DNA from: Paraburkholderia sp. NMBU_R16
Lineage (GTDB): Bacteria > Pseudomonadota > Gammaproteobacteria > Burkholderiales > Burkholderiaceae
NCBI RefSeq assembly: GCF_013282575.1
Contig: NZ_JAAAYE010000005.1
Span: 1-64,000 of the forward strand
Reading direction: 5' to 3'
Length of the DNA stretch: 64,000 nucleotides
Shown here piece after piece: positions 2,205 through 34,827 of the stretch. Positions within the stretch are counted from its first letter, which is position 1. Each line of letters opens with the position of its first letter. Below the pieces are notes generated by a model. The model was not told where the DNA came from, did not search any database, and saw nothing but the letters and a program-made list of their open reading frames with translations. Both the position numbers and the translations under genes were made by a program.

Positions 2205-5200
2205 ATGCCGACTGCTCGTAAAAAAAATGCGGGACGTGATCGGGTTGATTACCGAGGGCTCGGCATGCCCATACACCGCTTGGCACAAATCGAATTACCG
2301 GATTCCGGACTGGAGGGTTTCGTGCTCGATTCCGACGACGGCGCTTTTCTCGCGCTCAGCGCACCGCAACTGGAAATGTGGTTCGCACAACAGTTGGAAC
2401 CCGATAATCCGTTGATCGACAACCGCGTCTATGTCGATATCTGCGGGCCTGTCGACCGGGCTGTATTCGATGAAACGCTGCACCGCCTGATCGGAGAAAC
2501 CGAAGCTTTGCATCTGCGTTTTGTCGAGACGCCGGCAGGTCCCAAGCAATACGTGGGGAGCCCGCCGTCCCCGTCGCTCTCGTTCGTCGACGTATCTCGG
2601 GAGCCCAACCCGTTCGGCGCAGCTCGCCGGCACATGCTCAGCGCGGCAGCCGTGGCTTACGATCTGTCGGCGGGGCCGCTGTTCAGTCAGATGCTCTTCA
2701 AGCTCGATGACGCGCACCATGTCTGGTATCAGCGCTATCATCACAGTGTCCTCGACGGCGCCAGCATCCCCATTCTGATTCGTCGCGCCGCGCAGATCTA
2801 TTCAGCGCTGCTGCATGGCGAGCCTGTGCCTGCATCGCAGTTCGGCACGGTCCGCTCGATCCTCGAAGACGATGCGCAATATCGCCAATCGGTGCGTTTC
2901 GAAACGGATCGAAGTTATTGGAGCGGCTACATAGCCGATCTGCCACGCCCGGAAACTGTGGCGGGCGTTCCCGCCGACCGAAGCGGGGACTTTCGGCGCG
3001 CTTCGGTTCCTTTTCCCCGGGATGCGGCTCTACTGTTGCGCGAAGTCGAACCGCGCGTCGGCAAATGGCCGCTGCTGATGACCGCAGTCGTGGCCGCCTA
3101 TCTGTTCCGGATCACGAACGGACGCGCAACGGTTTTCGATTTTCCTGTATCGGCACGCCCCAAAGACGCCCGCCTCACGCCCGGCATGTTCGCTAACGTC
3201 GTGCCGCTTCGACTTGCGATGAGCAATGCCGATACGCTCGAGACGCTGACGCAGCGAGCAAGCGCCGAAGTCTTCCGGCACCTGAAACATCAACAGTTTC
3301 GAGGCAAGGACATTCGCCGCATGCAAGATGGCGATACAGGCCCGATTTTTGGGCCGCGCATCAACATCATTCCATTCGACGATGAATGGCATTTCGGCGG
3401 CAGTCCTGCGACCTTGCACTCGCTCGCCAATGGTCTCGTGCACGATCTCGCGGTGACGCTGATCGGCACACCGGGCAAGGCCGGCTGCATGCTGCACGTC
3501 GACGGCAACGCGCGCCTTTATGACGATGCCGGGATCGCATCGCACCAGCAACGGCTTCTCAAGTTCATCGACCGGATGCTCGTCGATCCGGCGCGACCCA
3601 TCGAACGTATCGGGCTCGTCGACGATGACGAACACCGCTTGCAGATCGCGACCTGGAACGCGACGCGCGCGCCCTATCCCGCGCATCTTTGCATGCAGCA
3701 ACTCGTGCAAGCGCAGGCAGAGAGAACGCCTGATGCCGTTGCCGTGTTCGCCGAAGCGCAGCGGTTGTCGTACGCCGAGCTCAACGCACGCGCCAATCAG
3801 CTCGCCCGTCACTTGACGAGCCGTGCTGCCTTACATCCCGACACGCCCATCGCCCTGTGCACGCATCGCAGCCCGGCGATGGTCGTCGCAATGCTCGCCG
3901 TGCTCAAGGCCGGCGCGGCTTATGTGCCTATCGACCCGACGTCGCCGCCTGCGCGCATCGCGCATATCGTGCGGGACGCCGACCCGGCACTCGCACTCGT
4001 CGACCGTGACACCTACCGCACGGTGCATGCCGCATGCTCTGCGTTCGGCGATCCGTCCCGTTCCCTCGACATCATGGAGATCGATCTCGCGTCGCCGCCC
4101 TGGGCGCACCTGCCGGCCGACAATATCCGCGCAGAAGACGTCGGCGTCGACGCTTCGCATCTCGCCTACATCATCTATACGTCCGGTTCGACGGGTACCC
4201 CCAAGGGCGTCATGGTCGAGCACCGGCAACTTCTGAATCTCGTGTCCTGGCACATCGGCCGCTTCGAGCTGCGTCCAGGGTTGCAGGTTCCCTGTACCGC
4301 AGGCCTAGCCTTCGATGCCTGTACATGGGAAATCTGGCCGACCCTCGCCAGCGGCGCGTCTCTGCTGTTACCGCCATCCGACGTCCGCGACGATGCCCTC
4401 GCCCTACTTCATTGGTGGCGCCATCAATCGATCGAATGCGCGTTCCTCGTCACACCGTTGGCGCTGCTCGCCATTCGAACCGGGCTGCCCCCGAGCTTGC
4501 GCCGCCTGCTCATCGGCGGAGAGCGCCTCGCGCAGTGGCCCGAACACCTGCCTGCCGCCGTCGAACTCGTCAACAACTATGGGCCCACCGAGGCCACCGT
4601 GGTCGCCACTTCGGGCGCGCTGTCGCCCGCCGATTCTGTCCATCCGATCGGGCGTCCCATCGCCAATACGCGGATCTATCTCCTCGACGAGCGACAACGC
4701 CCGGTGCCGATCGGCTCACCGGGCGAGCTCTATATCGGCGGCGCCAGCGTCGCGCGCGGCTATCTGAATCGTCCCGAACTCACCGCCGAGCGCTTCGTGC
4801 CCGATCCGTTCGCGCGCGCGGCCGGCGAGTCCGGCGCGCGCATGTATCGCACCGGCGACCTCGCGCGCTATCTGCCCGACGGCCGGCTCGTGTTCCTCGG
4901 GCGCAACGACGATCAGTTGAAGATCCGCGGCTTTCGCGTCGAACCGGCCGAGATCGAAGCCCAACTGCTCGCACACCCCGATGTACGCGAAGCCGTCGTG
5001 GTGGCCCGCGAAGACGGGGACGACCGGGTGCGTCTGGTCGGCTATCTGTCGTTGCACGAAGCGGCCGCCCACGGCTTCGACGCAGGAGAACGCGTGGGCG
5101 CGCTGCGCGCTCATCTCGTCGAGCGGCTGCCCGAATACATGCTGCCCGCGGCTTTCGTCGTACTCGAGAAGATGCCGCTCACCGCGAACGGGAAAGTCGA

Positions 5201-8200
5201 TCGGCGCGCGCTGCCCGCGCCCACCGAAGACGCCTATGGGCTCGAACGCTACGAGCCGCCGCAAGGCGAGATCGAAATCGCCCTTGCGCGGTTGTGGGCC
5301 GAACTGCTCGATGTGACTCGGGTCGGCCGCCATGACAACTTCTTTTCGCTCGGCGGCCACTCGCTGCTCGCCGTGCAACTGATCGAGCGGTTGAGACAAA
5401 CCGGCATTGGCCTTCCGATCCGCGCGCTGTTTCAGCACCCCACTCCCGCCGGGCTCGCAAAGGCGCTCGCGGAGTCGCAACAGGTGACTGTGCCGGAGAA
5501 CCGGATCGCCCCCGGCACGGCGACGATCACCCCCGATCTGCTCCCGCTCGTTTCGCTCGCGCAAGCCGAGATCGATCGCATCGTGTCGGGCGTGCCCGGA
5601 GGCGCGGCGAACGTTCAGGACATCTATCCACTTTCGCCATTGCAAGAGGGCATCCTCTTTCATCATCTTCTGAGCACGCAGGGCGATCCGTACCTGCTGA
5701 CGGCACGCATGATCTTCGCGGACCGCGCGACGCTCGACCGCTATCTCGGCGCCATCCAGCAGATCGTCGATCGACATGACATCTTGCGCACCGCATTCGT
5801 TTGGGAAGCAATCGACATCCCGGTGCAAGTCGTCTATCGGCACGCAAACGTTGCGGTCACGGAGCTTACACTCGATCCGGCCGCCGGCCCGATCGGCGAG
5901 CAGCTACAGCGGCGCTTCAATGCCGATCGTCATCGCATGGACCTCTCGCGGGCGCCTTTGTTGCACTTCGTCGTCGCGCGCGAACCCGATGCACGGTGGC
6001 ATGTGCTCATGGCGCTGCACCACATGGTTGGCGATCACACCACGCTTGCCATTCTTCACGACGAGGTGAAAGCGCTCATGAGCGATCGGTCGGCCAGTCT
6101 GGCCGAGCCTTTGCCCTATAGAAACCTGGTGGCGCAGGCGCGCTTGGGCGTGCCGCCCGACGCTCACGGGGCATTCTTTCGCGAAATGCTCGGCAGCGTC
6201 GATACGCCGACTCTGCCGTTCGGGCTCACAGGCGTGCACGGCGAATCGGCCACCATTGCCGAAGCGCGCAGAATGATCGCGCCGTCCGTCAATGAGCGCT
6301 TGCGCTCGCAGGCGCGGCGGCTCGGCGTGAGCCTCGCGACGCTGTGCCATCTGGCATGGGCTGCCGTACTCGCACGCACGGCCGCGCAGCAGCGCGTCGT
6401 GTTCGGCACTGTGCTCTTCGGGCGCATGGCGGCCGGCGCGGGCGCCGATCGCGCGATGGGGCTTTTCATCAACACGCTGCCGTTGTGTGTCGATATAGAC
6501 GATACGGACGTGGAAGCAGCCGCACGCGAAGTGCAATTGCGTCTTGCGGCACTGCTCGCCCACGAGCATGCGTCGCTCGCACTCGCGCAGCGGTGCAGCA
6601 ACGTTGGATCGAACGCGCCGCTTTTCAGCGCGCTGCTCAACTACCGGCACAACGCGCTGCCGCCCGGGCACGATACCGCGCTGGCAGGCGTCGAGTTCGT
6701 CAGCGGCGAGGAGCGGACCAACTATCCGGTCACGCTGTCGGTCGAGGATTACGGTGACGCTTTGGCGGTGACGGTTCAGGTCGTCGACGCGCTATCGCCG
6801 GGACGCATCTGCGCCTACATGCAGCGCGCCCTCGAACAGTTGGCCGATGCGCTTGAACATCGTTCGTCTATTGCCGTTTCCCAATTGGACGTGCTGCCGA
6901 GCGACGAACGCCGGTTGCTGCTCGATACATGGAATGCCACGCGGGCCGAATTCCCCGCTCACCTATGCCTGCACGAACTCGTCGAGCAGCAGGTCCGTCG
7001 TACGCCCGACGCCACGGCCGTGCTCGTGGGCGGTCAGCGCCTCTCGTACGCCGAACTGAACACCCGTGCCAACCGCCTCGCCCGCCATCTGATACGCCAC
7101 GGCGTGCGCCCCGATGTGCGCGTCGCCCTCTGCCTGCAGCGCAGCGCCTCGATGGCAATCGCCCTGCTCGCCGTGCTCAAAGCCGGCGGCGCTTATGTGC
7201 CCCTCGATCCCGATTACCCCGCCGCCCGCCTCGCCCACATCCTGCGCGATGCCAACCCTTGCCTGCTGCTCGTCGACCGCCGCGGCCGTGACGTACTCGC
7301 CGGCTTGCTCGACGAGCCCGGCTTCGCGCCATTGCCCCTCATCGAACTCGGCGACGACCGCCCGCACGAGGCGCCCTGGGCCGCGCTGCCCGGCGAGAAC
7401 CTCCCGCCTCGCACGCTCGGGCTGCAGCCAACCCATCTCGCTTACGTCATCTATACGTCCGGCTCCACCGGCATGCCCAAGGGCGTGCAAAACGAGCATC
7501 GCGCCCTCGTCAACCGCCTCGTCTGGATGCAGCGCGCCTATCGCCTCCAATCCGACGACGTCGTCCTCCAGAAAACCCCTTTCAGCTTCGACGTCTCCGT
7601 CTGGGAGTTCTTCTGGACCCTCTCGGCTGGCGCCACCTTGCTCATGGCCGAGCCCGGCATGCACCGCGATGCCGACTACCTCGCCTCGCTCATCGCCTCC
7701 GCGCGCGTCACCACCGCCCACTTCGTGCCCTCCATGTTGAGCGGCTTTCTCGATGCCGCCCGCGCCGCCCAATGCACCTCGTTGCGGCGCATCGTCTGCA
7801 GCGGCGAGGCCTTGCCCGCCGCCACCGTGCACCGCCTCAAGCAAGTGCTGCCCAGCACCGCACTGCACAACCTCTACGGCCCCACCGAAGCCGCCATCGA
7901 CGTCACCGCCTGGAGCTGCCCCGCAACGTTCGATGACGATACCGTGCCCATCGGCAAGCCCATCGACAATCTGCGCATCTATCTGCTCGATGCCCGTCAG
8001 CAGCCGGTCGCGCTCGGCGCCGTGGGCGAGCTCTATATCGGCGGCGTGGGCGTGGCGCGCGGCTACCTGAACCGGCCCGAGCTCAATGCCGAACGATTCC
8101 TGCCCGATCCGTTCGCGCGCGCCGCCGGCGAGCCCGACGCGCGCATGTATCGCACCGGCGACCTCGCACGCTACGCGCCCGACGGCAACATCGTGTTTCT

Positions 8201-11200
8201 CGGGCGCAACGACGAGCAGCTCAAGATCCGCGGCTTTCGCATCGAGCCCGCCGAGATCGAGACGCAGCTCGCAGCACACGAGTCGGTGCGCGAGGCCGTC
8301 GTCATCGCACGCGAGAATGCCGCACACGAAAAGCGTCTGATCGCCTATGTCACGCTGCGACACGATGCCCGTGACGATGCCCTGACCGTTGACAGTGCCG
8401 ATCTGCCGCATCGGCTGCGCCAGCACCTCCAACGGCGGCTGCCCGACTACATGATCCCGGCCGCGTTCGTCACGCTCGCCGCGTTACCCCTCACACCCAA
8501 CGGCAAACTCGATCGCAAGGCCTTGCCCGCCCCTTCCGATGAAGCCATCGCGCACGCGCGGTACGAACCGCCTTCGGGTGAAACCGAATGCGCGATCGCG
8601 CGTGTCTGGCAGGGATTGCTCGGCGTGCACCGCATCGGCCGCCACGACAACTTCTTCGAATTGGGTGGCCATTCGATTCTCGCGGTCCGCATGATCTCGC
8701 GGCTCGCCGCCGAGACGGAAAAGACCGTGACGCTACGCGCCGTCTTCGATGCGCCGACCGTCGCCACGCTCGCTACGCTCGTCGACTCGAGCGAGACGCT
8801 TGCCGCCGATACGCATCTCACCGCGATCGATCGCGACGGAGCATTGCCGCTCTCGTTCGCCGAGGAGCGCGTGCTCGCAGTCGAGGCGGACAGTGCGCGA
8901 GCCACGATGCTCAACGCGTCTCGCCTTTTCAGCCTCAGGGGCGCGATACGTCCGGAATGTATCGAGGATGCGCTCAAGCATGTCGTCGATCGTCACGAGG
9001 TGTTGCGCACGCACTATCGCCGCGAGGCGTCAACCGGCGCGTTTTCGGCTGTGATCGGTCCTTCCGAAAGCTGGCGGATGACCGTGCATGCATCCCCGGG
9101 CGGCAGGAACGACGCGATGCGTCTGGCGCAAAGGAAAGCAGCACGGCAGCCGGATTGCTTCACCGGGCCCGTATTCGGTGCCACGCTCTTTCCGTCATCG
9201 GCCGAACATGCCGTCCTCGTGCTGTCGATCCATCACATCGTCATGGATGCCGCTTCGTGGGCCATCGTTTGGCGGGAATTCGTCGAAGCATACGAGCGAT
9301 TCGCCGCCGGATTCGCGCCACAGCGGACGCCGCTGACAACGCAATATCGGGACTATGCGGCATGGGAACGCCGGCAACGCGATACCGCGCGCCTCGAACA
9401 CCTGCGTCGTGCGTGGCGCGAGCGCTTGGCCGGCGCGCCGGTGCGTACGGACTTGCCGTTCGATCGCCCGCGTCCGGCCGTCATGTCCGAGAAGGCCGGA
9501 TCCATCGAACGGATGCTTTCCCCCGAGCTCGTGCGTCAGGTCAGGCACTGCGCGGCATCGGAGCACGTCACGCCGTTTCTCGTGCTGGAGACGACGTTCG
9601 CTATTCTGGCGGCTCAGCTATCGAAAAGCCGTGAAGTCGTCATCGGCACGGTGACGGAGGGTCGCCGTCACCGCGATGTCGAAGACATGGTCGGCCTGTT
9701 CGTCAACACCATTGCGTTGCGCCACCGGATCGATGGCCACACGACGCTTTCCGATCATTTGGCATCGGCAGCGAGGGAACTCGTCTCGGCGTTGGAAGTC
9801 AGCGAGCTGCCGTTCGCCGATATCGTGGCCGCCATCAACCCGCCGCGTGCGCCCTCGCACGACCCGGTCTTTCAGTTGTTCTGCCAGTTTCAGCATGGGA
9901 CCGGTGCACCCCGGACCCATGTCGGTGGCATGGAGATCGAGGCGGTTGCACGCGAAGAGGTGGGCAGAGGCGCCGACATCGCCATCGTGTTTCAGGAAAT
10001 GAATGACGCGGTGCGCCTCGACCTGACATACAGCGCGGACCTGTTCGATCCAACGACAGTCGACGCACTGGTGACGCTTTATCTGTGCTGGCTATCCGAT
10101 TCCATTCAGGCGCCGCACGCAGCCATACAAGAACGATGGCACCAAACTATCGAAAGTGTCCTGGCATCGCCCGACAACAAGGATGCCAACAGGTTGTTCG
10201 CACAACGATCCACCGAGCCTGGCGCGTGGTACGCGTTCTCGCCCGCCCAACAGGCTGTGTGGCTGCAAGAGCAGTCCGCACCGCGCAACAGCCCGTTTTT
10301 CTCGGTAGCAGCGATGCGCTATCCGCCCACGATAGACCGTGAGCGGCTTGCGACTGCCGCCCGCGCGCTCATCGCCCAAAATCAATCGTTTTGGCTTCAA
10401 TGGGACAGCAGCGGACTGCAGCGCGAGGCACCCGAACCGACAACGTGTTTCGAACGATTCGTGGACCCGTCGTCGCCCATCTATGAGCAAGCCTGCGAGG
10501 CGGTGATCGACTGGCATCGTCGGTTGAACGGCGCACATACGAGCCGCATCGGCTCGGTCGCGCTCTTCGAGTGGCAAAGCGAAGTTCTCGTCGCGCTGCG
10601 TTCGCATCATGTGCAAAACGACGGTTGGTCGGCGATCAAGTCCTTCGAGCGGATCGCGGAGAACTATGCGGTGCTCGAGCGCAATGGCACGCAGCGCTTC
10701 GAGATGGATCGCTTATTCCTCGACACCCTCAAAATCGAAGATCGTTATCTGGCTTCTCCCGCCCACGCCCGCGATGCGGCGTTCTGGGCTGAGCGGTGTC
10801 GGGCTGTCGAGGGGCCACCGCTCGTCACTTTGCTCGCCGATCGACCGCATGCGACGCAGGTTGGCGCCGACATCCGATCCATCCGCAAGACGTTGCCGAA
10901 CGCCGCATGGGCAGCGCTCGCGCGCACGGCCGAGGCGTTCGGTGCATCTCCGGGCGAGTGTCTGACCGCCATCAGTGCACTGTATCTGAGCGGCGTGCGA
11001 AGCACGGCAATCGGCGTGTCTTTTCTCAATCGGACGAAGGAGTCGCTCGATGTCTCGGGGCAATTCGCCAAAGTGATTCCGCTTCACGTCAGCTTCGAAG
11101 CTCCGAACGATCTAGTGGGCGCAGCACTGCGGCACGCATGCCACGCGTTTCGCGACTCGCTGCGCCATGGCCGCTATCCGTATGGCGAGATGATCCGGCA

Positions 11201-14200
11201 GGCTGGCCTTGCGCCGCGCGCCATCGACATCAGCGTGAACACGCTGTTTTTACGACACGCGATCGAAATCGATGGCAGGCCCGCACCAATGCGTTGGCTC
11301 TCGGGCCCCGAACCCGGCCTCTCGTTCCTCTTTACGCAGTTCGGGCGGACAGCGGCGGTGGATCTCGAATTGCGTTTCAATAGTGCCTTGTTCGAGACGG
11401 CGACGGTTTCGCGGCACGCCGATAGGCTGCTTCAATTCATCGAGCGCGCCTGCGAAGACCTCGATCGACCCGTGCAGGCCGTCGAGTTGACGACGAGCGA
11501 CGAACGCCGGTTGCTGCTCGATACATGGAATGCCACGCGGGCCGAATTCCCCGCTCACCTATGCCTGCACGAACTCGTCGAGCAGCAGGTCCGTCGTACG
11601 CCCGACGCCACGGCCGTGCTCGTGGGCGGTCAGCGCCTCTCGTACGCCGAACTGAACACCCGTGCCAACCGCCTCGCCCGCCATCTGATACGCCACGGCG
11701 TGCGCCCCGATGTGCGCGTCGCCCTCTGCCTGCAGCGCAGCGCCTCGATGGCAATCGCCCTGCTCGCCGTGCTCAAAGCCGGCGGCGCTTATGTGCCCCT
11801 CGATCCCGATTACCCCGCCGCCCGCCTCGCCCACATCCTGCGCGATGCCAACCCTTGCCTGCTGCTCGTCGACCGCCGCGGCCGTGACGTACTCGCCGGC
11901 TTGCTCGACGAGCCCGGCTTCGCGCCATTGCCCCTCATCGAACTCGGCGACGACCGCCCGCACGAGGCGCCCTGGGCCGCGCTGCCCGGCGAGAACCTCC
12001 CGCCTCGCACGCTCGGGCTGCAGCCAACCCATCTCGCTTACGTCATCTATACGTCCGGCTCCACCGGCATGCCCAAGGGCGTGCAAAACGAGCATCGCGC
12101 CCTCGTCAACCGCCTCGTCTGGATGCAGCGCGCCTATCGCCTCCAATCCGACGACGTCGTCCTCCAGAAAACCCCTTTCAGCTTCGACGTCTCCGTCTGG
12201 GAGTTCTTCTGGACCCTCTCGGCTGGCGCCACCTTGCTCATGGCCGAGCCCGGCATGCACCGCGATGCCGACTACCTCGCCTCGCTCATCGCCTCCGCGC
12301 GCGTCACCACCGCCCACTTCGTGCCCTCCATGTTGAGCGGCTTTCTCGATGCCGCCCGCGCCGCCCAATGCACCTCGTTGCGGCGCATCGTCTGCAGCGG
12401 CGAGGCCTTGCCCGCCGCCACCGTGCACCGCCTCAAGCAAGTGCTGCCCAGCACCGCACTGCACAACCTCTACGGCCCCACCGAAGCCGCCATCGACGTC
12501 ACCGCCTGGAGCTGCCCCGCAACGTTCGATGACGATACCGTGCCCATCGGCAAGCCCATCGACAATCTGCGCATCTATCTGCTCGATGCCCGTCAGCAGC
12601 CGGTCGCGCTCGGCGCCGTGGGCGAGCTCTATATCGGCGGCGTGGGCGTGGCGCGCGGCTACCTGAACCGGCCCGAGCTCAATGCCGAACGATTCCTGCC
12701 CGATCCGTTCGCGCGCGCCGCCGGCGAGCCCGACGCGCGCATGTATCGCACCGGCGACCTCGCACGCTACGCGCCCGACGGCAACATCGTGTTTCTCGGG
12801 CGCAACGACGAGCAGCTCAAGATCCGCGGCTTTCGCATCGAGCCCGCCGAGATCGAGACGCAGCTCGCAGCACACGAGTCGGTGCGCGAGGCCGTCGTCA
12901 TCGCACGCGAGAATGCCGCACACGAAAAGCGTCTGATCGCCTATGTCACGCTGCGACACGATGCCCGTGACGATGCCCTGACCGTTGACAGTGCCGATCT
13001 GCCGCATCGGCTGCGCCAGCACCTCCAACGGCGGCTGCCCGACTACATGATCCCGGCCGCGTTCGTCACGCTCGCCGCGTTACCCCTCACACCCAACGGC
13101 AAACTCGATCGCAAGGCCTTGCCCGCCCCTTCCGACGAAGCGCTGGCACACGCCCCTGACGAAGCACCGCAAGGTGCGCTCGAAACTGCGCTGGCCGCGC
13201 TTTGGCGGGAATTGCTCGGTGTATCGCGCATCGGCCGACACGACAACTTCTTTTCGCTGGGCGGTCATTCCCTCGTCGCCGTGCGCATGCTCAATCGCTT
13301 GCCGGCGTCGATCGGTACCGAAGTCCCTCTTTCATTGCTCTTCGAGCATCCGACGCTCGGGGACTTTGCGAGCGCGGTGTCGGGCGTGCTGGCCGAAGCA
13401 GGCCCCGAAGCGTTGCCGGAAATCGCGCCTGTCTCTCGCGATGCATCGCTCGCGCTTTCATTCGCTCAGCAGCGTCTGTGGTTCCTGGCCCAACTGGAAG
13501 GGGAAAGTACGACGTATCACGTTCCTCTGATGCTGAGACTCCAGGGCCGGCTCGACCGTGCGGCCTGGCGCCGCGCGCTCGACACGATCTGGTTGTGGCA
13601 CGAGGCACTCCGCACGGTCTTTCCGGCTGAGGATGGGCGCCCTGTCGCGCGTCTGCCGCATCGCGAAGACGGCATGCCATGGCGCGAAGACGATCTTTCG
13701 ACGCTCCCCGCTGCACGCACCCGCCGCGAGGAAATATGCCGCGAAGAAGCCACGCGAGCGTTCGACCTCGCGCAAGGGCCGCTCGTGCGAGCGCGATTGA
13801 TCCGGCTCGCCTCCGATGAACATGTCTTCATGCTGGTTCAGCACCATATCGTGACTGACGGATGGTCGATCCGCGTACTCGTCGAGGCGCTGTGCGAACT
13901 CTACCGCGCGGCCGTTACCGACGCCGATCTGCCCGCTCCACCGCGCATTCAGTACCGCGACTACGTGGCGTGGCAGCGCCAGTGGCTTACCGAGGAGCGC
14001 CTCGCTCACGAGGCGCGGTACTGGCGTGTCAGGCTTGCCGACGCACCGGTGTCGCTCGATCTGCCGACCGATCGTCCTAGACCGGTGCGCCAGCGCTTCG
14101 AAGCGGGACACGTGCCGATCCGCCTCGACGCAGCGACGACGCTTGCGGTGCGGCAGCTCGCGCAGGCGCACGGCGTGACGCTATTCATGCTCTTCGCCGC

Positions 14201-17200
14201 GGCCTGGGCCATCGTGCTTGCGCGCCTGTCAGGACAGAGCGATCTCGTCATCGGCACACCGACGGCCAATCGTCCACGCCCCGAACTCGAATCGCTCGCG
14301 GGGCTCTTCGTCAATACCGTGGCGCTGCGCATCGATTTATCGGGAGAGCCCGCCGTCGCGGACTTGCTCGCGCGCGTGCGCGATACCGTGCTCGCGGCAC
14401 ACGCGCATCAAAATCTGCCGTTCGAACAAGTCGTCGAAATCGTCCGTCCGCCGCGCCGGCTCGATCGCACGCCCGTATTTCAAGTCATGATGGCGTGGCA
14501 GGAGATCGATATCGGAACGCTTGCATTGCCGAATCTCTCGCTTGCGCCCGTGGCCGGCAGCTTCGAGCGTGCCAAGTTCGACCTGGAGCTTGACCTGGGC
14601 GACAACGGACAAACGATTTCCGGTGCGCTGCGTTATGCGAGCGCGTTGTTTGACGAAGCCACCATCGCACGTCATTGCGACTATCTGCTTGCGGTGGTGC
14701 AAGGCATGATGAGCAATGCTCGGCAGCCGGTCTCGCGGATTGCGATAGTGGGCGAAGCCGAGCGCCGCTTGTTACTCGAAACCTGGAACGCGACACGCCA
14801 TGAGGAAAGTGCCCCTGGCGGACAATCACCGTATCCGACCCAGCTTTGCATGCACCAGCTCGTTGAAGCTCAGGCCGCTCGGACGCCCGACGCCCCCGCC
14901 ATACTCGCGGATGATCTGCGCCTGTCCTACGCCGAGCTCAATGCACGCGCCAATCGGCTTGCCCATCATTTGCGCGAGCTGGGCATTCAACCCGACGGCA
15001 TCGTGGCGCTGTGTGCCCGGCGCAGCGCCTCGCTGGTCGTCGCCATGCTCGCGATCCTCAAGGCCGGCGGCGCCTATCTGCCCATCGATCCCGCCACACC
15101 AGTCACGCGCATCGCTCATATGCTGACCGACGCGCGGCCGGCCGCCGTGCTCGTCGATCGAGACTCGCGAGAGGCGGTGAGTCATGCGCGCGCGATTTCG
15201 ACAGGCGGCGATTCGTCAGGCGTCCCGGTCATCGTCGAGTTGGACGCGCCCCAGCCTCCGTGGATACATCAGTCGATCGACAACCCGGGCGCAGACGCGC
15301 GCACGGAGCGCCCGCTTCCCGAGCATCTTGCCTATATCGTCTACACCTCCGGCTCCACCGGCACGCCCAAGGGCGTCATGATCGAGCATCGCCAGCTCGT
15401 CAATCTAGTGTGTTGGCATACTGCGCGCTTCGAGTTGCGGCCAGGCTCGCGCGTTCCCTGCACCGCCGGCCTCGCTTTCGACGCGTGCACCTGGGAAATC
15501 TGGCCCGCGCTAGCGAGCGGGGCCGCCTTGCTGCTGCCCCCGCGGCGAGTGCACGACGATGCGCTCGCGCTGGTTCACTGGTGGCGCGCTCAACCGATCG
15601 AATGCGGGTTTCTCGTGACGCCCTTGGCTCTCCTGGCCATTCAGGCCGGTCTGCCACCGAGTTTGCGACGGTTGCTCATAGGCGGCGAGCATCTCACTCA
15701 CGTTCCGGCCGAACTCCCTCCGACCGTTGAACTCGTCAACAATTATGGGCCGACGGAAACTACCGTCGTTGCGACATCGGGTACCGTCTCGCGCTCCGAT
15801 GCCGTGCACACCATTGGCCGACCCATCGCGAATACGCGCGCGTATCTGCTCGACGAAGCGGGGGAACCGGTGCCAATCGGCGCGCCCGGCGAACTCTATA
15901 TCGGCGGTCTCGGCGTGGCCCGCGGCTATTTGAACCGGCCTGAACTCAACGCCGAGCGCTTCCTCCCCGATCCGTTCGCGCGCGCCGCCGGCTCGGCCGA
16001 TGCAAGGATGTTTCGCACCGGCGACCTCGCGCGCTATCTGCCAGACGGCAGACTCGTGTTCCTCGGCCGCAACGACGATCAACTCAAGATTCGCGGCTTT
16101 CGCGTGGAACCGGGGGAGATCGAAGCGCAGTTGCTCGCGCACCCACTCATGCGCGAAGCGGTTGTGCTGGCACACGAAAGCGACGGCGAACCTTCGCGGC
16201 TCGTTGCCTATGTAGCGATGCAGCGTGGCAGCGCGGCATCCCACCCCGACGGCCGAACTGGTATCGGTCCCGAATCCGACGACACGCACGCCGGGCAAGC
16301 GCCAGCAGCAGCGGGAGCCGCGCAGTTCGTCGATATGCTGCGCACTCATCTCGCGCAGCGCCTGCCTGAGTACATGGTGCCGGCGGCATTCGTCGTGCTC
16401 GATACGCTGCCGCTGACGGTCAATGGCAAGATCGATCGGCGCGCCCTGCCCGCGCCAACCGAACATGCTTACGCGATCGCACGCTACGAGTCGCCTGAAG
16501 GCAAAACGGAAGTCACGCTTGCAGGCCTGTGGGCCGAACTGTTGGGTTTGCCGCGCGTTGGACGGCGCGACAACTTCTTCTCGCTTGGCGGCCACTCGCT
16601 CCTAGCCGTTCAGATGCTTGCCGAAGTCAAAAAGCGACTGGGAATCGAGGCTTCCATCCGTGCCCTGTTCGAAGCCCCGACCGTCGTGCAATTCGCCGAG
16701 CGACTCGGCACCCAACCGGCTTCCGATGCGCTGGCCGTTCTGCTTCCATTGCAGCGCAGGGGCACCGGCGCGCCGCTCTTTTGTATCCACCCTGCGGGCG
16801 GCTTCAGCTGGCCTTATATCTCGCTCGCTCGCAACATTTCCGACCGGCCCGTCTACGCGCTGCAGTCGCCGGGGCTTTGCGATCCCGAGCACGAAGCCGT
16901 ATCGATCGAAGCGATGGCCGCGGACTATATCGCGCACGTCCGCACCATCCAGCCGAGGGGACCGTATCACTTACTGGGTTGGTCGCTCGGCTGCCATATC
17001 GCACATGCCATGGCGACACAGCTGCAGGCGCTGGGGGAAGACGTCGCTCGACTCGTCATGCTCGACGGATATCCCATCGGCCATGACGAAGCCTTGCCTA
17101 CGCCCAGTGACGAACAGGTTATCGAAGTGTTGAACCACGCCCTTGCGGATAGCACGTCGAGCAACGGCACGGCTAACGTCGACCTTGCGCCGCTGCCCAC

Positions 17201-17528
17201 GCAATCGGGCCCGCTCGTTTCGATGCTCGGCGAACGTGCATTCGGCGCCGTCTTGCGGCAATTCAAGCGCGCGCCGGCGTTGGCGGGCGCTTATCGGCCA
17301 CAGGTCTATTGCGGCAACGTGCTGTTCTTCCGGGCCGCGGTGCGCCCGCCGGAGGAACGGGTACCTCGATCGCCGGCCGCTTGGCAGCCTTATGTGAGAG
17401 GCAGCATCGTCGAGCACGATGTCGCGTGCCGGCACGAAGCGATGATGCAAAAGAATTTCGCGGATGTAATCGGCCACGTGCTTGCGGGGTTGCTGAACGA
17501 CGTCACTCCAACGGAAATCCATCCCTGA
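2205..17528 (+). CDS. Tetramodular double chain-initiating NRPS, icosalide-synthetase-like
   Basis: A 5,107-residue peptide synthetase. Domains by residue: C1 about 45-480 (HHSVLDG 179-185) with no loading module before it, so a lipoinitiating starter C; A1 (YTSGSTG 658, FDACTWEIW 703) and T1 Ser1053; dual E/C about 1130-1570 with HHLLSTQGD 1153-1161 and HHMVGDH 1272-1278; A2 (1750, FDVSVWEFF 1795) and T2 Ser2157; C3 with HHIVMDA 2343-2349; then, with no A-T between, C4 with HHVQNDG 2801-2807; A3 (3282, 3327) and T3 Ser3689; C5 HHIVTDG 3880-3886; A4 (4380, 4425) and T4 Ser4798; thioesterase with GWSLG Ser4927, Asp4954, His5077. My hand-read specificity codes are DAWFLGNV(V) for A1 and A4 (Leu) and DVWHVSLI(D) for A2 and A3 (Ser). 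This is the known icosalide layout, predicting hydroxyacyl-D-Leu-Ser-hydroxyacyl-Ser-Leu cyclised by the TE. An ATG at 2265 with GAGGG six bases upstream is an equally good start. No MbtH gene or exporter adjoins it. Confidence 0.95.
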   Translation: MPTARKKNAGRDRVDYRGLGMPIHRLAQIELPDSGLEGFVLDSDDGAFLALSAPQLEMWFAQQLEPDNPLIDNRVYVDICGPVDRAVFDETLHRLIGETEALHLRFVETPAGPKQYVGSPPSPSLSFVDVSREPNPFGAARRHMLSAAAVAYDLSAGPLFSQMLFKLDDAHHVWYQRYHHSVLDGASIPILIRRAAQIYSALLHGEPVPASQFGTVRSILEDDAQYRQSVRFETDRSYWSGYIADLPRPETVAGVPADRSGDFRRASVPFPRDAALLLREVEPRVGKWPLLMTAVVAAYLFRITNGRATVFDFPVSARPKDARLTPGMFANVVPLRLAMSNADTLETLTQRASAEVFRHLKHQQFRGKDIRRMQDGDTGPIFGPRINIIPFDDEWHFGGSPATLHSLANGLVHDLAVTLIGTPGKAGCMLHVDGNARLYDDAGIASHQQRLLKFIDRMLVDPARPIERIGLVDDDEHRLQIATWNATRAPYPAHLCMQQLVQAQAERTPDAVAVFAEAQRLSYAELNARANQLARHLTSRAALHPDTPIALCTHRSPAMVVAMLAVLKAGAAYVPIDPTSPPARIAHIVRDADPALALVDRDTYRTVHAACSAFGDPSRSLDIMEIDLASPPWAHLPADNIRAEDVGVDASHLAYIIYTSGSTGTPKGVMVEHRQLLNLVSWHIGRFELRPGLQVPCTAGLAFDACTWEIWPTLASGASLLLPPSDVRDDALALLHWWRHQSIECAFLVTPLALLAIRTGLPPSLRRLLIGGERLAQWPEHLPAAVELVNNYGPTEATVVATSGALSPADSVHPIGRPIANTRIYLLDERQRPVPIGSPGELYIGGASVARGYLNRPELTAERFVPDPFARAAGESGARMYRTGDLARYLPDGRLVFLGRNDDQLKIRGFRVEPAEIEAQLLAHPDVREAVVVAREDGDDRVRLVGYLSLHEAAAHGFDAGERVGALRAHLVERLPEYMLPAAFVVLEKMPLTANGKVDRRALPAPTEDAYGLERYEPPQGEIEIALARLWAELLDVTRVGRHDNFFSLGGHSLLAVQLIERLRQTGIGLPIRALFQHPTPAGLAKALAESQQVTVPENRIAPGTATITPDLLPLVSLAQAEIDRIVSGVPGGAANVQDIYPLSPLQEGILFHHLLSTQGDPYLLTARMIFADRATLDRYLGAIQQIVDRHDILRTAFVWEAIDIPVQVVYRHANVAVTELTLDPAAGPIGEQLQRRFNADRHRMDLSRAPLLHFVVAREPDARWHVLMALHHMVGDHTTLAILHDEVKALMSDRSASLAEPLPYRNLVAQARLGVPPDAHGAFFREMLGSVDTPTLPFGLTGVHGESATIAEARRMIAPSVNERLRSQARRLGVSLATLCHLAWAAVLARTAAQQRVVFGTVLFGRMAAGAGADRAMGLFINTLPLCVDIDDTDVEAAAREVQLRLAALLAHEHASLALAQRCSNVGSNAPLFSALLNYRHNALPPGHDTALAGVEFVSGEERTNYPVTLSVEDYGDALAVTVQVVDALSPGRICAYMQRALEQLADALEHRSSIAVSQLDVLPSDERRLLLDTWNATRAEFPAHLCLHELVEQQVRRTPDATAVLVGGQRLSYAELNTRANRLARHLIRHGVRPDVRVALCLQRSASMAIALLAVLKAGGAYVPLDPDYPAARLAHILRDANPCLLLVDRRGRDVLAGLLDEPGFAPLPLIELGDDRPHEAPWAALPGENLPPRTLGLQPTHLAYVIYTSGSTGMPKGVQNEHRALVNRLVWMQRAYRLQSDDVVLQKTPFSFDVSVWEFFWTLSAGATLLMAEPGMHRDADYLASLIASARVTTAHFVPSMLSGFLDAARAAQCTSLRRIVCSGEALPAATVHRLKQVLPSTALHNLYGPTEAAIDVTAWSCPATFDDDTVPIGKPIDNLRIYLLDARQQPVALGAVGELYIGGVGVARGYLNRPELNAERFLPDPFARAAGEPDARMYRTGDLARYAPDGNIVFLGRNDEQLKIRGFRIEPAEIETQLAAHESVREAVVIARENAAHEKRLIAYVTLRHDARDDALTVDSADLPHRLRQHLQRRLPDYMIPAAFVTLAALPLTPNGKLDRKALPAPSDEAIAHARYEPPSGETECAIARVWQGLLGVHRIGRHDNFFELGGHSILAVRMISRLAAETEKTVTLRAVFDAPTVATLATLVDSSETLAADTHLTAIDRDGALPLSFAEERVLAVEADSARATMLNASRLFSLRGAIRPECIEDALKHVVDRHEVLRTHYRREASTGAFSAVIGPSESWRMTVHASPGGRNDAMRLAQRKAARQPDCFTGPVFGATLFPSSAEHAVLVLSIHHIVMDAASWAIVWREFVEAYERFAAGFAPQRTPLTTQYRDYAAWERRQRDTARLEHLRRAWRERLAGAPVRTDLPFDRPRPAVMSEKAGSIERMLSPELVRQVRHCAASEHVTPFLVLETTFAILAAQLSKSREVVIGTVTEGRRHRDVEDMVGLFVNTIALRHRIDGHTTLSDHLASAARELVSALEVSELPFADIVAAINPPRAPSHDPVFQLFCQFQHGTGAPRTHVGGMEIEAVAREEVGRGADIAIVFQEMNDAVRLDLTYSADLFDPTTVDALVTLYLCWLSDSIQAPHAAIQERWHQTIESVLASPDNKDANRLFAQRSTEPGAWYAFSPAQQAVWLQEQSAPRNSPFFSVAAMRYPPTIDRERLATAARALIAQNQSFWLQWDSSGLQREAPEPTTCFERFVDPSSPIYEQACEAVIDWHRRLNGAHTSRIGSVALFEWQSEVLVALRSHHVQNDGWSAIKSFERIAENYAVLERNGTQRFEMDRLFLDTLKIEDRYLASPAHARDAAFWAERCRAVEGPPLVTLLADRPHATQVGADIRSIRKTLPNAAWAALARTAEAFGASPGECLTAISALYLSGVRSTAIGVSFLNRTKESLDVSGQFAKVIPLHVSFEAPNDLVGAALRHACHAFRDSLRHGRYPYGEMIRQAGLAPRAIDISVNTLFLRHAIEIDGRPAPMRWLSGPEPGLSFLFTQFGRTAAVDLELRFNSALFETATVSRHADRLLQFIERACEDLDRPVQAVELTTSDERRLLLDTWNATRAEFPAHLCLHELVEQQVRRTPDATAVLVGGQRLSYAELNTRANRLARHLIRHGVRPDVRVALCLQRSASMAIALLAVLKAGGAYVPLDPDYPAARLAHILRDANPCLLLVDRRGRDVLAGLLDEPGFAPLPLIELGDDRPHEAPWAALPGENLPPRTLGLQPTHLAYVIYTSGSTGMPKGVQNEHRALVNRLVWMQRAYRLQSDDVVLQKTPFSFDVSVWEFFWTLSAGATLLMAEPGMHRDADYLASLIASARVTTAHFVPSMLSGFLDAARAAQCTSLRRIVCSGEALPAATVHRLKQVLPSTALHNLYGPTEAAIDVTAWSCPATFDDDTVPIGKPIDNLRIYLLDARQQPVALGAVGELYIGGVGVARGYLNRPELNAERFLPDPFARAAGEPDARMYRTGDLARYAPDGNIVFLGRNDEQLKIRGFRIEPAEIETQLAAHESVREAVVIARENAAHEKRLIAYVTLRHDARDDALTVDSADLPHRLRQHLQRRLPDYMIPAAFVTLAALPLTPNGKLDRKALPAPSDEALAHAPDEAPQGALETALAALWRELLGVSRIGRHDNFFSLGGHSLVAVRMLNRLPASIGTEVPLSLLFEHPTLGDFASAVSGVLAEAGPEALPEIAPVSRDASLALSFAQQRLWFLAQLEGESTTYHVPLMLRLQGRLDRAAWRRALDTIWLWHEALRTVFPAEDGRPVARLPHREDGMPWREDDLSTLPAARTRREEICREEATRAFDLAQGPLVRARLIRLASDEHVFMLVQHHIVTDGWSIRVLVEALCELYRAAVTDADLPAPPRIQYRDYVAWQRQWLTEERLAHEARYWRVRLADAPVSLDLPTDRPRPVRQRFEAGHVPIRLDAATTLAVRQLAQAHGVTLFMLFAAAWAIVLARLSGQSDLVIGTPTANRPRPELESLAGLFVNTVALRIDLSGEPAVADLLARVRDTVLAAHAHQNLPFEQVVEIVRPPRRLDRTPVFQVMMAWQEIDIGTLALPNLSLAPVAGSFERAKFDLELDLGDNGQTISGALRYASALFDEATIARHCDYLLAVVQGMMSNARQPVSRIAIVGEAERRLLLETWNATRHEESAPGGQSPYPTQLCMHQLVEAQAARTPDAPAILADDLRLSYAELNARANRLAHHLRELGIQPDGIVALCARRSASLVVAMLAILKAGGAYLPIDPATPVTRIAHMLTDARPAAVLVDRDSREAVSHARAISTGGDSSGVPVIVELDAPQPPWIHQSIDNPGADARTERPLPEHLAYIVYTSGSTGTPKGVMIEHRQLVNLVCWHTARFELRPGSRVPCTAGLAFDACTWEIWPALASGAALLLPPRRVHDDALALVHWWRAQPIECGFLVTPLALLAIQAGLPPSLRRLLIGGEHLTHVPAELPPTVELVNNYGPTETTVVATSGTVSRSDAVHTIGRPIANTRAYLLDEAGEPVPIGAPGELYIGGLGVARGYLNRPELNAERFLPDPFARAAGSADARMFRTGDLARYLPDGRLVFLGRNDDQLKIRGFRVEPGEIEAQLLAHPLMREAVVLAHESDGEPSRLVAYVAMQRGSAASHPDGRTGIGPESDDTHAGQAPAAAGAAQFVDMLRTHLAQRLPEYMVPAAFVVLDTLPLTVNGKIDRRALPAPTEHAYAIARYESPEGKTEVTLAGLWAELLGLPRVGRRDNFFSLGGHSLLAVQMLAEVKKRLGIEASIRALFEAPTVVQFAERLGTQPASDALAVLLPLQRRGTGAPLFCIHPAGGFSWPYISLARNISDRPVYALQSPGLCDPEHEAVSIEAMAADYIAHVRTIQPRGPYHLLGWSLGCHIAHAMATQLQALGEDVARLVMLDGYPIGHDEALPTPSDEQVIEVLNHALADSTSSNGTANVDLAPLPTQSGPLVSMLGERAFGAVLRQFKRAPALAGAYRPQVYCGNVLFFRAAVRPPEERVPRSPAAWQPYVRGSIVEHDVACRHEAMMQKNFADVIGHVLAGLLNDVTPTEIHP
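6898..8539 (+). repeat. 1,642-bp direct repeat, copy 1 (Ser adenylation domain A2)
   Basis: This stretch recurs at 11494-13135 with an offset of 4,596 bases. It runs from the junction after the E/C domain (codons for SDERRLLLDTWNATR) through the whole A2 domain to KLDRKALPAPSDEA. Translations of the two copies, including those in other frames, agree throughout. The first base that differs after it is 8540 (T) against 13136 (C); to the left, identity stops at 6897 against 11493. The copied unit is exactly one A domain with its linkers. Confidence 0.95.
11494..13135 (+). repeat. 1,642-bp direct repeat, copy 2 (Ser adenylation domain A3)
   Basis: Second copy of the repeat at 6898-8539. Here it follows the internal starter-type condensation domain C4 and encodes A3. 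The flanking condensation and carrier domains differ between copies, so only the adenylation unit was duplicated or homogenised. Confidence 0.95.
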
Positions 17529-21367: not shown

Positions 21368-22246
21368 ATGCCATCGACCGATCGCACTCATCAGTTCATT
21401 TTGACGCTCGATTGCCCCAGCGCCGCGGGGCAGGTCGCCTCCGTCGTGGGGCTGCTCGACAAGCATCAAGGTTACGTCGACGAATTGACCGTCTTCGACG
21501 ACGACAGCAGCGAGCACTTTTTCATGCGCTGTGTCTTTCACGGCGCACGCCGCGATGGGGGACCGCTCGACATCGATTCTTTAAAAACCGAGTTCGCGCC
21601 GATTGCCGACCGGTTTCGGATGCAATGGGCCATCCACGACGCCAACATGCGGCCGAAGGTGCTCCTCATGGTATCCAAGCTCGAACACTGTCTCGCGGAC
21701 CTGCTGTTCCGCTGGCGCATGGGCGAGTTGAAGATGGATATCGTCGCGGTGGCTTCGAATCATGCCACGCTCGAACCCATGGCGCGGCAGCACGGCCTCC
21801 CGTTTCATCACCTGCCGATTACGCCCGAAACGAAGGCGCAGCAAGAGGCACGGATTCTCGATCTCTTCGATACGAGCGGTGCCGAGCTCATGGTGCTTGC
21901 GCGCTATATGCAGATTCTCTCGGGCGAAACCAGTCGCAAGCTTGCCGGACGCGCGATCAACATCCACCACTCGTTCTTACCGGGCTTCAAGGGCGCCAAG
22001 CCTTATCATCAAGCTCATGCGCGCGGCGTGAAACTAATCGGCGCAACCGCGCATTTCGTTACCGACGATCTCGACGAAGGGCCAATCATCGAACAAGTCG
22101 TTGAGCGGGTCGACCACTCGCACCGGCCCGAGCAGTTGCTTGCGGTGGGCCGGGATGTCGAGTGCATCACGCTCGCACGTGCCGTCAAGGCATTCATCGA
22201 GCGGCGGGTGTTCATCAATGGCGATCGGACCGTCGTCTTGCAGTGA
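21368..22246 (+). CDS. purU: Formyltetrahydrofolate deformylase
   Basis: A 292-residue PurU that hydrolyses 10-formyl-THF to formate and THF. Residues 8-85 form the ACT regulatory domain. The C-terminal formyltransferase-fold domain has Asn198 and His200 (INIHHSFLPGFKG) and Asp236 in VTDDLDEGPII, equivalent to the catalytic triad of GAR transformylase. Betaine demethylation loads methyl groups onto folate, so a deformylase next to the pathway would recycle THF; betaine clusters of pseudomonads and burkholderias commonly include purU. It converges on an acyltransferase gene 51 bases away. Confidence 0.93.
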   Translation: MPSTDRTHQFILTLDCPSAAGQVASVVGLLDKHQGYVDELTVFDDDSSEHFFMRCVFHGARRDGGPLDIDSLKTEFAPIADRFRMQWAIHDANMRPKVLLMVSKLEHCLADLLFRWRMGELKMDIVAVASNHATLEPMARQHGLPFHHLPITPETKAQQEARILDLFDTSGAELMVLARYMQILSGETSRKLAGRAINIHHSFLPGFKGAKPYHQAHARGVKLIGATAHFVTDDLDEGPIIEQVVERVDHSHRPEQLLAVGRDVECITLARAVKAFIERRVFINGDRTVVLQ

Positions 22247-22248
22247 GA

Positions 22249-22282
22249 GAAATCGAACGCGCGCGGCTACGCGATCGGTTTC
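22249..22282. terminator. Hairpin between convergent purU and acyltransferase genes
   Basis: Arms GAAATCGAACGCG (22249-22261) and CGCGATCGGTTTC (22270-22282) pair with one mismatch and one G-T pair around an 8-base loop. It lies in the 51-base gap between two converging genes, as expected for a shared terminator, but there is no T-run on either side. Confidence 0.4.
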
Positions 22283-22297
22283 GAACAGCCGAGCGAG

Positions 22298-23428
22298 TTA
22301 ACGGGTGCCCGCAACCGGAGCCTCTGACAGTACGTCGTAGGATGCTGGCGCATTTTTTGTCGATGGGCGCTCCCACCTGCGCGACATGCGGTTGATCCGG
22401 TCGCGACACGGCGCTTCGACGAACCGATACACGACGTGCGCAAGAAGGATTGAGCCCACGAGATAGACAGCGGTCGTGGCCAGAACGGCTGCGAGCGGAC
22501 GAGGGTGGAGTCCTGCGAGGGGAGCGAAGAGCGGGCCGAGCAGATCCGCGTGCACGAGGTACAGCGAATACGATACCTTGCCAAGCGACTGCCACATCGG
22601 ACGGTGAAAGAATCGTGCGGCGTGTCCTTCATCGGACGCTACGGCCGCGATCAGGAACGCAAAGACGACCGGTGCGGCAAATGCAAGACCGCGGACCGAG
22701 CCCGCGAGATTCATGTAGACAAGCGCGGCAGCGGCGACAACGAGCTGTGCATGTCCTCGAGATAAAGCACGCACTATGCGCGTGTCGCGGTATTCGGCGA
22801 GCAGTGCACCGAGAAAGAATCCGGCGACACACCGCGCCCAACCGAATCGGAAGGTAAGCTCGAGGCATCGACCGTGATGCAAACAGTCGTCTTGTAGCGC
22901 CGAAGCCCAGACGCATGTCGCCCAGGCAGAAAGCGCACACACCGCCAGGATCGCCGCACGGTGTCGTCCCCTTGCGAGTACGCAGATCGCCGCGAACATC
23001 AGATAGACATAGAATTCGTCCGAGGACGACCAGCTCGCAAAGTCTCCGACGAGACGATCGAACAAATTGAACCCGTGAACCATCGTCAGGTTTGCCGCGA
23101 GCTCGGTCAGGGGCGGCAGCCCGACAGGGTGCGCCGAGAGAATCCAGGCGACGAGGTTCCAGTCTGCGATGTACAGCATCAGCCCCACTAAATGGACGGG
23201 CCATAAGCGGCCGAGCCGCCGGACCACGAACGCGGGGAGATCGGCGATGTGCTGCAACCGCGAGCCGTAGGTCGCGCAGATGACGAATCCGCTCAATACA
23301 AAGAAGAGATCGACAGCCAGGTAACTATTGTCGAGTATCGGCGGCTGCGATATTTTGGCATGGAAGAGCACGACAAGAAGCGCCGCGAGGCCGCGCATAC
23401 CTTCCAGGCTTTTTATCGGGCGGTTCAT
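22298..23428 (-). CDS. Membrane acyltransferase, acyltransferase-3 (OafA/YrhL-like) family
   Basis: A 376-residue polytopic membrane protein. The family motif R-GxxAxxVxxxH is seen at residues 12-23 (RGLAALLVVLFH), followed by the FFVLSGFVI signature and about ten hydrophobic segments. These enzymes transfer acetyl or other acyl groups to sugars or lipids on the cytoplasmic membrane. The substrate is not predictable. It has no clear partner; the NRPS is 5 kb away and the sugar island 30 kb away, so links to either are speculative. Confidence 0.85.
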   Translation of the reverse strand: MNRPIKSLEGMRGLAALLVVLFHAKISQPPILDNSYLAVDLFFVLSGFVICATYGSRLQHIADLPAFVVRRLGRLWPVHLVGLMLYIADWNLVAWILSAHPVGLPPLTELAANLTMVHGFNLFDRLVGDFASWSSSDEFYVYLMFAAICVLARGRHRAAILAVCALSAWATCVWASALQDDCLHHGRCLELTFRFGWARCVAGFFLGALLAEYRDTRIVRALSRGHAQLVVAAAALVYMNLAGSVRGLAFAAPVVFAFLIAAVASDEGHAARFFHRPMWQSLGKVSYSLYLVHADLLGPLFAPLAGLHPRPLAAVLATTAVYLVGSILLAHVVYRFVEAPCRDRINRMSRRWERPSTKNAPASYDVLSEAPVAGTR

Positions 23429-23635
23429 CAGCGACCTTGTGCCGTGTCAAATGCCGACCGAGGGCAAAGCGCCTGTTATGGCTGCGCATCGACACGGAGC
23501 CCCGTCGAAACGACATGCCCCCGATCTCAATCCCCGTGTGCTCGCATAGTTACGTGGAAAGTCGCGAGATAACGTGTGGGACGCCACATAAAAACTGACC
23601 TTTTGCGCTTTCCCGATACAGAACCCCAAGCCTCA

Positions 23636-23674
23636 AAAAGATCGCGCCCGGCATCGATCGACGATGCCGGGCGC
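23636..23674 (-). terminator. Rho-independent terminator of the betaine-binding-protein gene
   Basis: A perfect 13-bp stem (23644-23656 with 23662-23674) and 5-base loop. On the minus strand it is followed within three bases by a run of five T. It begins 25 bases after the stop of the minus-strand gene at 23700 and so ends the whole minus-strand betaine run. Confidence 0.88.
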
Positions 23675-23699
23675 TCAGTCGCTTTCGAGGGATGATCGA

Positions 23700-24566: not shown

Positions 24567-24682
24567 GTTCAGGTCTCCTGATCGTCGAGATCAGCGCATC
24601 CAAGGAGTCTCTAGAGTGCGCAGCCATTAAAAAGCGGTAGTCACGTTTTCCGACACCGTCTTGTCCGTAAACGACGTTTCTT

Positions 24683-25843: not shown

Positions 25844-25870
25844 TCCCTTTCGGATGTTTTCCGTTGTCCG

Positions 25871-27112: not shown

Positions 27113-27200
27113 GTCTACTCCGGATTCGTGACGTCCTGGTTCCAAAACACATTCCACTTGCTCGACGATGCGGCCCGGTGATGGATCCGCCGCCGTCGAT

Positions 27201-29176: not shown

Positions 29177-29181
29177 CGTCT

Positions 29182-31107: not shown

Positions 31108-31109
31108 GA

Positions 31110-33173: not shown

Positions 33174-33217
33174 TTCGATCGACCTCGAATCTATTTCCTT
33201 GAGCGGCCTTCGTCGTG

Positions 33218-33748: not shown

Positions 33749-33802
33749 GATTGGCCTGTTGCTGTGTTGTGGGTGGATGTTCGATTCGGATGCCCGGGCG
33801 GT

Positions 33803-34774: not shown

Positions 34775-34827
34775 TTATCGCTCCAGCGTGGGTCGATCGT
34801 CGCGTTCGTCGGTTTTGCAGCCCGGTT

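Follow-up and report, generated by a model that had tools for sequence, protein, structure and literature searches.

Icosalides are built around a 20-membered ring that contains two Ser, two Leu and 3-hydroxy acids, and they carry C8 and C10 tails (PMC12838130, PMC9581180). D-Leu is described only for icosalide A1, the A2 and B forms being all-L (PMC12838130). Their synthetase in Burkholderia gladioli, IcoA/IcoS, has the domain order C-A-T-C-A-T-C-C-A-T-C-A-T-TE in one protein and selects Leu-Ser-Ser-Leu (PMC8949500, PMC9581180). Of the condensation domains of this enzyme, two have been assigned as starters, one as C/E and two as LCL, and its module 3, in which a starter domain is embedded, is reported to have acylated Ser in vitro (PMC8949500). 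Transfer of the B. gladioli cluster to three other host species resulted in the production of icosalide A1, which was monitored at m/z 713.5 (PMC8302735). E. coli and Schlegelella have served as laboratory hosts for this cluster. The architecture is already published for B. gladioli, as is an icosalide cluster for Burkholderia stagnalis, known from genome mining (PMC8949500, PMC9581180). Starter condensation domains have also been characterised experimentally in two other synthetases, RzmA (rhizomide) and HolA (holrhizin), and column 148 in RzmA numbering was described as a gate for acyl length (PMC7804268).

The window analysed here, a stretch of 64,000 nucleotides from Paraburkholderia sp. 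NMBU_R16, contains one gene that very probably encodes a double chain-initiating NRPS of the icosalide type. The gene, its domains and an intragenic repeat are located as follows.

2205..17528, + strand, four-module NRPS gene, very probably icosalide-type (5107 aa, ATG start, no internal stop)
2349..3638, + strand, C1, starter condensation domain, HHSVLDG (Pfam Condensation, PDB match, tree)
3702..5213, + strand, A1, Leu code DAWFLGNVV (limits approximate)
5283..5468, + strand, T1 carrier domain, GGHS (Pfam PP-binding, motif)
5613..6923, + strand, C2, dual condensation/epimerisation type, HHLLSTQGD and HHMVGDH (motifs, tree)
6898..8539, + strand, first copy of the exact 1642-nt intragenic repeat (sequence comparison)
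6978..8525, + strand, A2, Ser code DVWHVSLID (limits approximate)
8595..8780, + strand, T2 carrier domain (placed around the GGHS motif, limits approximate)
8841..10133, + strand, C3, own clade on the LCL side, HHIVMDA, putative joiner of both chains (tree, active-site columns)
10230..11519, + strand, C4, embedded second starter domain, HHVQNDG (tree, AU test, active-site columns)
11494..13135, + strand, second copy of the exact 1642-nt intragenic repeat (sequence comparison)
11574..13121, + strand, A3, Ser code DVWHVSLID (limits approximate)
13191..13376, + strand, T3 carrier domain (placed around the GGHS motif, limits approximate)
13449..14777, + strand, C5, LCL-type elongation domain, HHIVTDG (PDB match, tree)
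14847..16232, + strand, A4, Leu code DAWFLGNVV (limits approximate)
16518..16706, + strand, T4 carrier domain (Pfam PP-binding, motif)
16773..17528, + strand, TE, type I thioesterase, GWSLG, putative ring closer (Pfam, motif)

Five Condensation, four AMP-binding, four PP-binding and one Thioesterase stretches were detected by Pfam in the 5107-aa ORF, which was run in two halves cut at 9800 (within C3), the Condensation coordinates being taken from the whole-genome run. Together with the domain search, this gave the order C-A-T-C-A-T-C-C-A-T-C-A-T-TE in a single ORF. C1 begins at residue 49 with no loading module ahead of it, and C3 directly adjoins C4, with ~32 residues and neither A nor T between them. 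Since seven further single-ORF relatives repeat this order, chance, an assembly accident peculiar to this genome and misread domains are all discarded as the source of the layout. Nine of the ten positions of each adenylation code were read, the final K being unread: DAWFLGNVV in A1 and A4, DVWHVSLID in A2 and A3. The code DVWHxSLIDK is one that we take to be a Ser code. DAWFLGNVVK is a Leu code (PMC12283262, PMC7524897). Over these nine positions the enzyme has the Leu-Ser-Ser-Leu specificity codes of icosalide-type synthetases. These results agree with an earlier note on this DNA, which had claimed one gene with two starter-type entries (an N-terminal condensation domain without loading module, and C4 directly after C3) and had matched its Leu-Ser-Ser-Leu codes and single TE to the icosalide synthetase. 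It is improbable that the gene is silent or broken in the window strain: the 5107-aa frame is intact, as are all four carrier GGHS motifs and the GWSLG motif of the TE, and nothing direct speaks for a defect; in one relative, G006, the gene is spread over two ORFs that overlap and differ in frame.

The domain order of IcoA/IcoS, with its two starters, one dual C/E and two further C domains, was also found in genome G398, which we infer to be probably B. gladioli. The alignment with the B. gladioli synthetase that had been proposed as a check was run on this probable B. gladioli enzyme and gave an equal domain order at 59.8% identity over the whole length (C1 53%, C4 55%). The nine code positions are also equal, except that the window has Val for Ile at one position of both Ser codes. 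The two differ in host genus, and no common flanking gene was seen in the flank comparison. The enzyme of Burkholderia stagnalis LMG 28156 (L003 = G357) has the same order at 60.8% identity; its Ser codes and its A4 code each have Ile at one position where the window has Val. Two enzymes of Trinickia share genus, domain order and the nine code residues with the window, namely those of T. dabaoshanensis (L001 = G003, NZ_PNYA01000015.1; 59.6% identity) and T. diaoshuihuensis (L002 = G004, NZ_QUBS01000026.1; 59.2%), although neither locus has a flanking gene in common with the window in the flank comparison. The host genus is therefore Trinickia, in the sense of the genus grouping shared with the genomes of these two species.

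The distribution of the tandem was followed with the C3-C4 stretch as query, counting whole-query or near-whole matches in genome draws that overlap, so that the counts are not additive. Such matches were found in five of 11 Trinickia genomes, the window's own included (seven of 11 when weaker C-domain matches are counted too), in four of 65 Burkholderia genomes and in two of 144 genomes of a third genus of Burkholderiaceae. Nine of 398 genomes drawn from the family had a match, and the only one among 399 drawn from the order was the window's own. Some C3-C4 match was present in 558 plasmid records; among the best 30 of these 558, a 1.26-Mb Burkholderia arboris plasmid record matched the whole query at 53% and the next reached 30%. 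A contig scan with six exact window peptide patterns, which is blind to many relatives, led to eight confirmed loci, three with 51-55% over the whole query and five from Bacillales with 28-29% and only ~1540 nt matched. Twelve synthetases, the window's included, were read in all: eight single-ORF four-module genes of the same order, and four others (G006 in two ORFs, G277 cut by a contig end, and the two-module genes of G339 and G447). All 12 retain the C3-C4 tandem, both two-module genes included. Pairwise identity among the eight complete four-module proteins is 55-87%: the window protein shares 59.2-60.8% with the seven others, the four Burkholderia proteins are 78.6-85.4% identical to one another, and those of T. 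dabaoshanensis and T. diaoshuihuensis are 86.6% identical. In G006 (L042/L043), the two ORFs overlap by 226 nt, either through a real break or a sequencing error. The window enzyme is a distant, apparently intact member of an already known type of synthetase, the icosalide type. No report of icosalide in Trinickia was found in the consulted portions of PMC10485841, PMC7561682, PMC10826400, PMC9958762, PMC8115902 and PMC12838130.

A tree of 66 condensation-domain rows was used to assign the subtypes, four rows of the contig-end-cut G277 having been left out of 70. The RzmA and HolA genes were identified by locus tag. The dual C/E label of three RzmA references is our assumption from motif, the remaining reference labels were assumed from position and motifs, and RS13085_C1 was labelled starter by position and tree only. 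The 11 C4 rows, the 11 C1 rows and the three reference starters grouped together (100/99) in this tree, for which the program flagged long branches that meet, at the starter references among other places. The nine C2 rows grouped with the three RzmA dual C/E rows (100/100), the 11 C3 rows formed one clade of their own (100/100), and the nine C5 rows fell in a group with eight of the nine LCL references (94/95); the ninth, RS13085_C2, has a long branch and joined C3 weakly (84/62). In a 43-row tree without the C1 rows, the C3 rows and RS13085_C2, C4 was still found with the three reference starters (100/99). Further, AU tests rejected C4 constrained with C3, C5 and LCL (p 0.0108) and C4 paired with C1 without references (p 0.0017). 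These rejections and the trees indicate that C4 stands on the starter side, yet as a separate lineage that is no copy of C1; C4 as an ordinary LCL domain and C4 as a duplicate of C1 are both rejected. The phylogenetic placement that had been proposed as a check for C4 sets it among starter domains, and the clustering with ordinary LCL domains, which the earlier note had named as a refutation, did not occur.

Structural matches and motifs were in line with these assignments to different degrees. The best PDB match of C1 was 7c1k (266 bits), taken as RzmA-Cs since it is listed beside 7c1h, which is so named in PMC7804268. This match and the tree identify C1 as an N-terminal starter domain. All 11 C1 rows have the stretch WYQRYHH, as do the starters of RzmA and HolA; the third reference starter has the variant WYQRCHH. 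The embedded starter of module 3 is identified by the tree and the AU test and more weakly by PDB score, since the best match of C4 was again 7c1k at 64 bits with Txo1/Txo2 chains within ~5-fold in E-value, and C4 is without WYQRYHH. C3 and C5 had Txo2/Txo1 chains as best matches, and the dual C/E type of the C domain in module 2 follows from the C2 motifs and the tree. While C1 and C4 of the window group with the starters of RzmA and HolA, those synthetases differ in having one starter each and, in the C domains detected, no C-C tandem.

Active-site columns were compared in RzmA numbering across 11 rows each of C1, C3 and C4. His140, Asp144 and Arg275 were kept in every row of all three domains; His139 was replaced by Pro in a single C4 row out of 11, the one from G398 (probable B. 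gladioli; L035, PHVQNDG). At column 145, C3 had Ala (11/11 rows), and every row of C1 and C4 had Gly. The C3 motif HHxxxDA was present in 11/11 rows, and its invariance fits a domain with a special acceptor, although this is no proof. At the acyl-gate column 148, C1 had Ile (7/11) or Val (4/11), C4 Ala (11/11) and C3 Trp (11/11); the window has Ile in C1 and Ala in C4, identical to G398. The dN/dS of C4 was 0.138-0.273 in five pairs of relatives of the window enzyme (some sharing a member), similar to the 0.112-0.314 of the other C domains and TE in the same five pairs. C4 is under purifying selection among these relatives. Such conservation bears on the alternative that C4 is vestigial or structural, so that the enzyme would make an ordinary single-tailed lipotetrapeptide in which C3 joins Ser-2 to Ser-3 by an amide. 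C4 is indeed divergent, with its weak PDB match and its missing WYQRYHH, but its motif is intact in the window, His140, Asp144 and Arg275 are kept in 11/11 C4 rows, dN/dS stays at 0.14-0.27, the trees place it on the starter side, and the tandem is retained in 12/12 synthetases, two-module ones included. A vestigial C4 is hence very unlikely.

In the preferred reading, that of two chain starts in one protein, C1 would acylate the Leu on T1 with a 3-hydroxyacyl group, and C2, being of the dual C/E type, could convert this Leu to D and would hand the chain to the Ser on T2. C4 would independently acylate the Ser on T3 with a second 3-hydroxyacyl group, and C3 would form an ester between the first chain and the hydroxyl of the acyl tail introduced by C4. 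C5 would then add the Leu on T4, and the TE would close a 20-membered ring via the hydroxyl of the first tail. For the substrates, the esterification by C3, the closure of the ring and the product, this proposal relies on homology to the B. gladioli enzyme described in the literature. An epimerising role of C2 stays uncertain because icosalides A2 and B hold only L residues (PMC12838130). An icosalide-like product is the best prediction for the window enzyme, since despite ~60% identity it agrees with the probable B. gladioli enzyme in its acyl-gate residues and, apart from one Val for Ile, in its codes. A Trinickia product that keeps the double initiation but is a congener, with tail lengths or stereochemistry unlike icosalide A1, is a possible though less probable outcome. 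The divergence from the probable B. gladioli enzyme, 59.8% over the whole length and 53% and 55% in C1 and C4, would favour such a congener, whereas the nine code positions (equal but for that single Val in each Ser code), the same acyl-gate Ile in C1 and Ala in C4, and a C2 of the same dual type argue against it. The earlier note had held that a host of another genus would mean a new source or an analogue with other acyl tails; Trinickia is such a new source, and the other tails find no support, the gate residues Ile and Ala being those of G398 too. These residues give no reason to expect tails that differ from those of B. gladioli, but acyl chain length is not set by a single gate position. 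The acyl groups would come from general metabolism, in line with the production of icosalide A1 in three other hosts (PMC8302735).

The adenylation domains provided evidence of a different kind of history. The A2 and A3 regions share an exact run of 1642 nt (6898-8539 and 11494-13135), the exactness of which could be an assembly effect in an assembly of 6,276,601 bases and 562 contigs. A2 and A3 are near-identical (95-99% of bases) also in the few-contig genomes G398 and G002. Within the nine four-module genes compared (G277 left out, A2 of G006 incomplete), protein identity was 81.3-99.0% for A2/A3 and 65.4-100% for A1/A4. In a tree of 40 A domains, A2/A3 paired by gene in seven of nine four-module genes and A1/A4 likewise in seven of nine; the exceptions, for both pairs, were T. 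dabaoshanensis and T. diaoshuihuensis, where the domains pair by position. The A domains of both two-module genes also pair by position. Unlike the A domains, the C1, C3 and C4 rows formed one clade per position in the condensation-domain tree. Gene conversion would be the natural reading of this homogenisation of same-substrate A domains within genes, and PMC9205934 mentions that this process homogenises assembly lines.

The two-module synthetases belong to two of the 144 genomes of the third genus and are located as follows.

L050:13480-20000 continuing in L051, two-module synthetase of G339 (2818 aa)
L052:13483-20000 continuing in L053, two-module synthetase of G447 (2823 aa)

Both have the layout C1-A(Leu)-T-C3-C4-A(Leu)-T-TE, with DAWFLGNVV as both codes. 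These Leu-Leu enzymes are predicted to make a 14-membered bis(3-hydroxyacyl-Leu) diolide, with a calculated m/z of about 539.4 if the tails are C8 and C10; no known product of this kind was found in the portions of the literature searched, which is weak evidence. On balance, we slightly favour the view that C3-C4 is an old, transferable cassette for a second start and an ester stitch, used in at least two frameworks (four-module Leu-Ser-Ser-Leu and two-module Leu-Leu) whose same-substrate A domains have been repeatedly homogenised by gene conversion. If so, two-tailed diolides would form a wider family, with the Trinickia enzyme as one of its branches. Starting two chains within a single protein is a rare assembly mode, which is now extended to Trinickia, and relatives at 55-87% identity reveal its fixed parts, namely HHxxxDA and the gate Trp of C3 and the gate Ala of C4 (11/11 rows). 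The choice of a carrier-bound acyl hydroxyl by C3 and the setting of the two tail lengths become directly testable, and the C3 step could be studied in a two-module relative as a compact natural system.

The surroundings of the gene were scanned with Pfam in 24 window ORFs beside it, chosen mechanically within 1-38962, some of them occupying opposite strands of the same stretch. Pfam matched neither an acyl ligase nor a carrier protein in these 24 ORFs, and a dedicated tailoring or acyl-loading operon was not seen among them. Two of the flanking ORFs are the following.

934-1890, - strand, short-chain dehydrogenase (Pfam)
22298-23428, - strand, membrane acyltransferase-type ORF, PF01757 (Pfam)

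Downstream of the synthetase gene, Pfam identified a LysR regulator on the opposite strand, an aldehyde dehydrogenase, a second LysR, a formyltransferase and the acyltransferase-type ORF, followed further downstream by a block with Fer2, Rieske, ETF, SHMT and AraC-type genes. The DNA of the aldehyde dehydrogenase is similar to genes annotated as CoA-acylating methylmalonate-semialdehyde dehydrogenase, and the block from the formyltransferase to the AraC-type gene (21368-37521) looks, we presume, perhaps like glycine-betaine catabolism. Flanks of 2-27 kb were compared for 11 loci by means of mechanical ORFs, with results for five of the 11. No flanking ORF of the window matched in more than three of the ten other loci, and the downstream block is common to G002 only, weak matches of 24-35% elsewhere aside. 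In G002, the formyltransferase gene begins ~85 bases after the NRPS gene.
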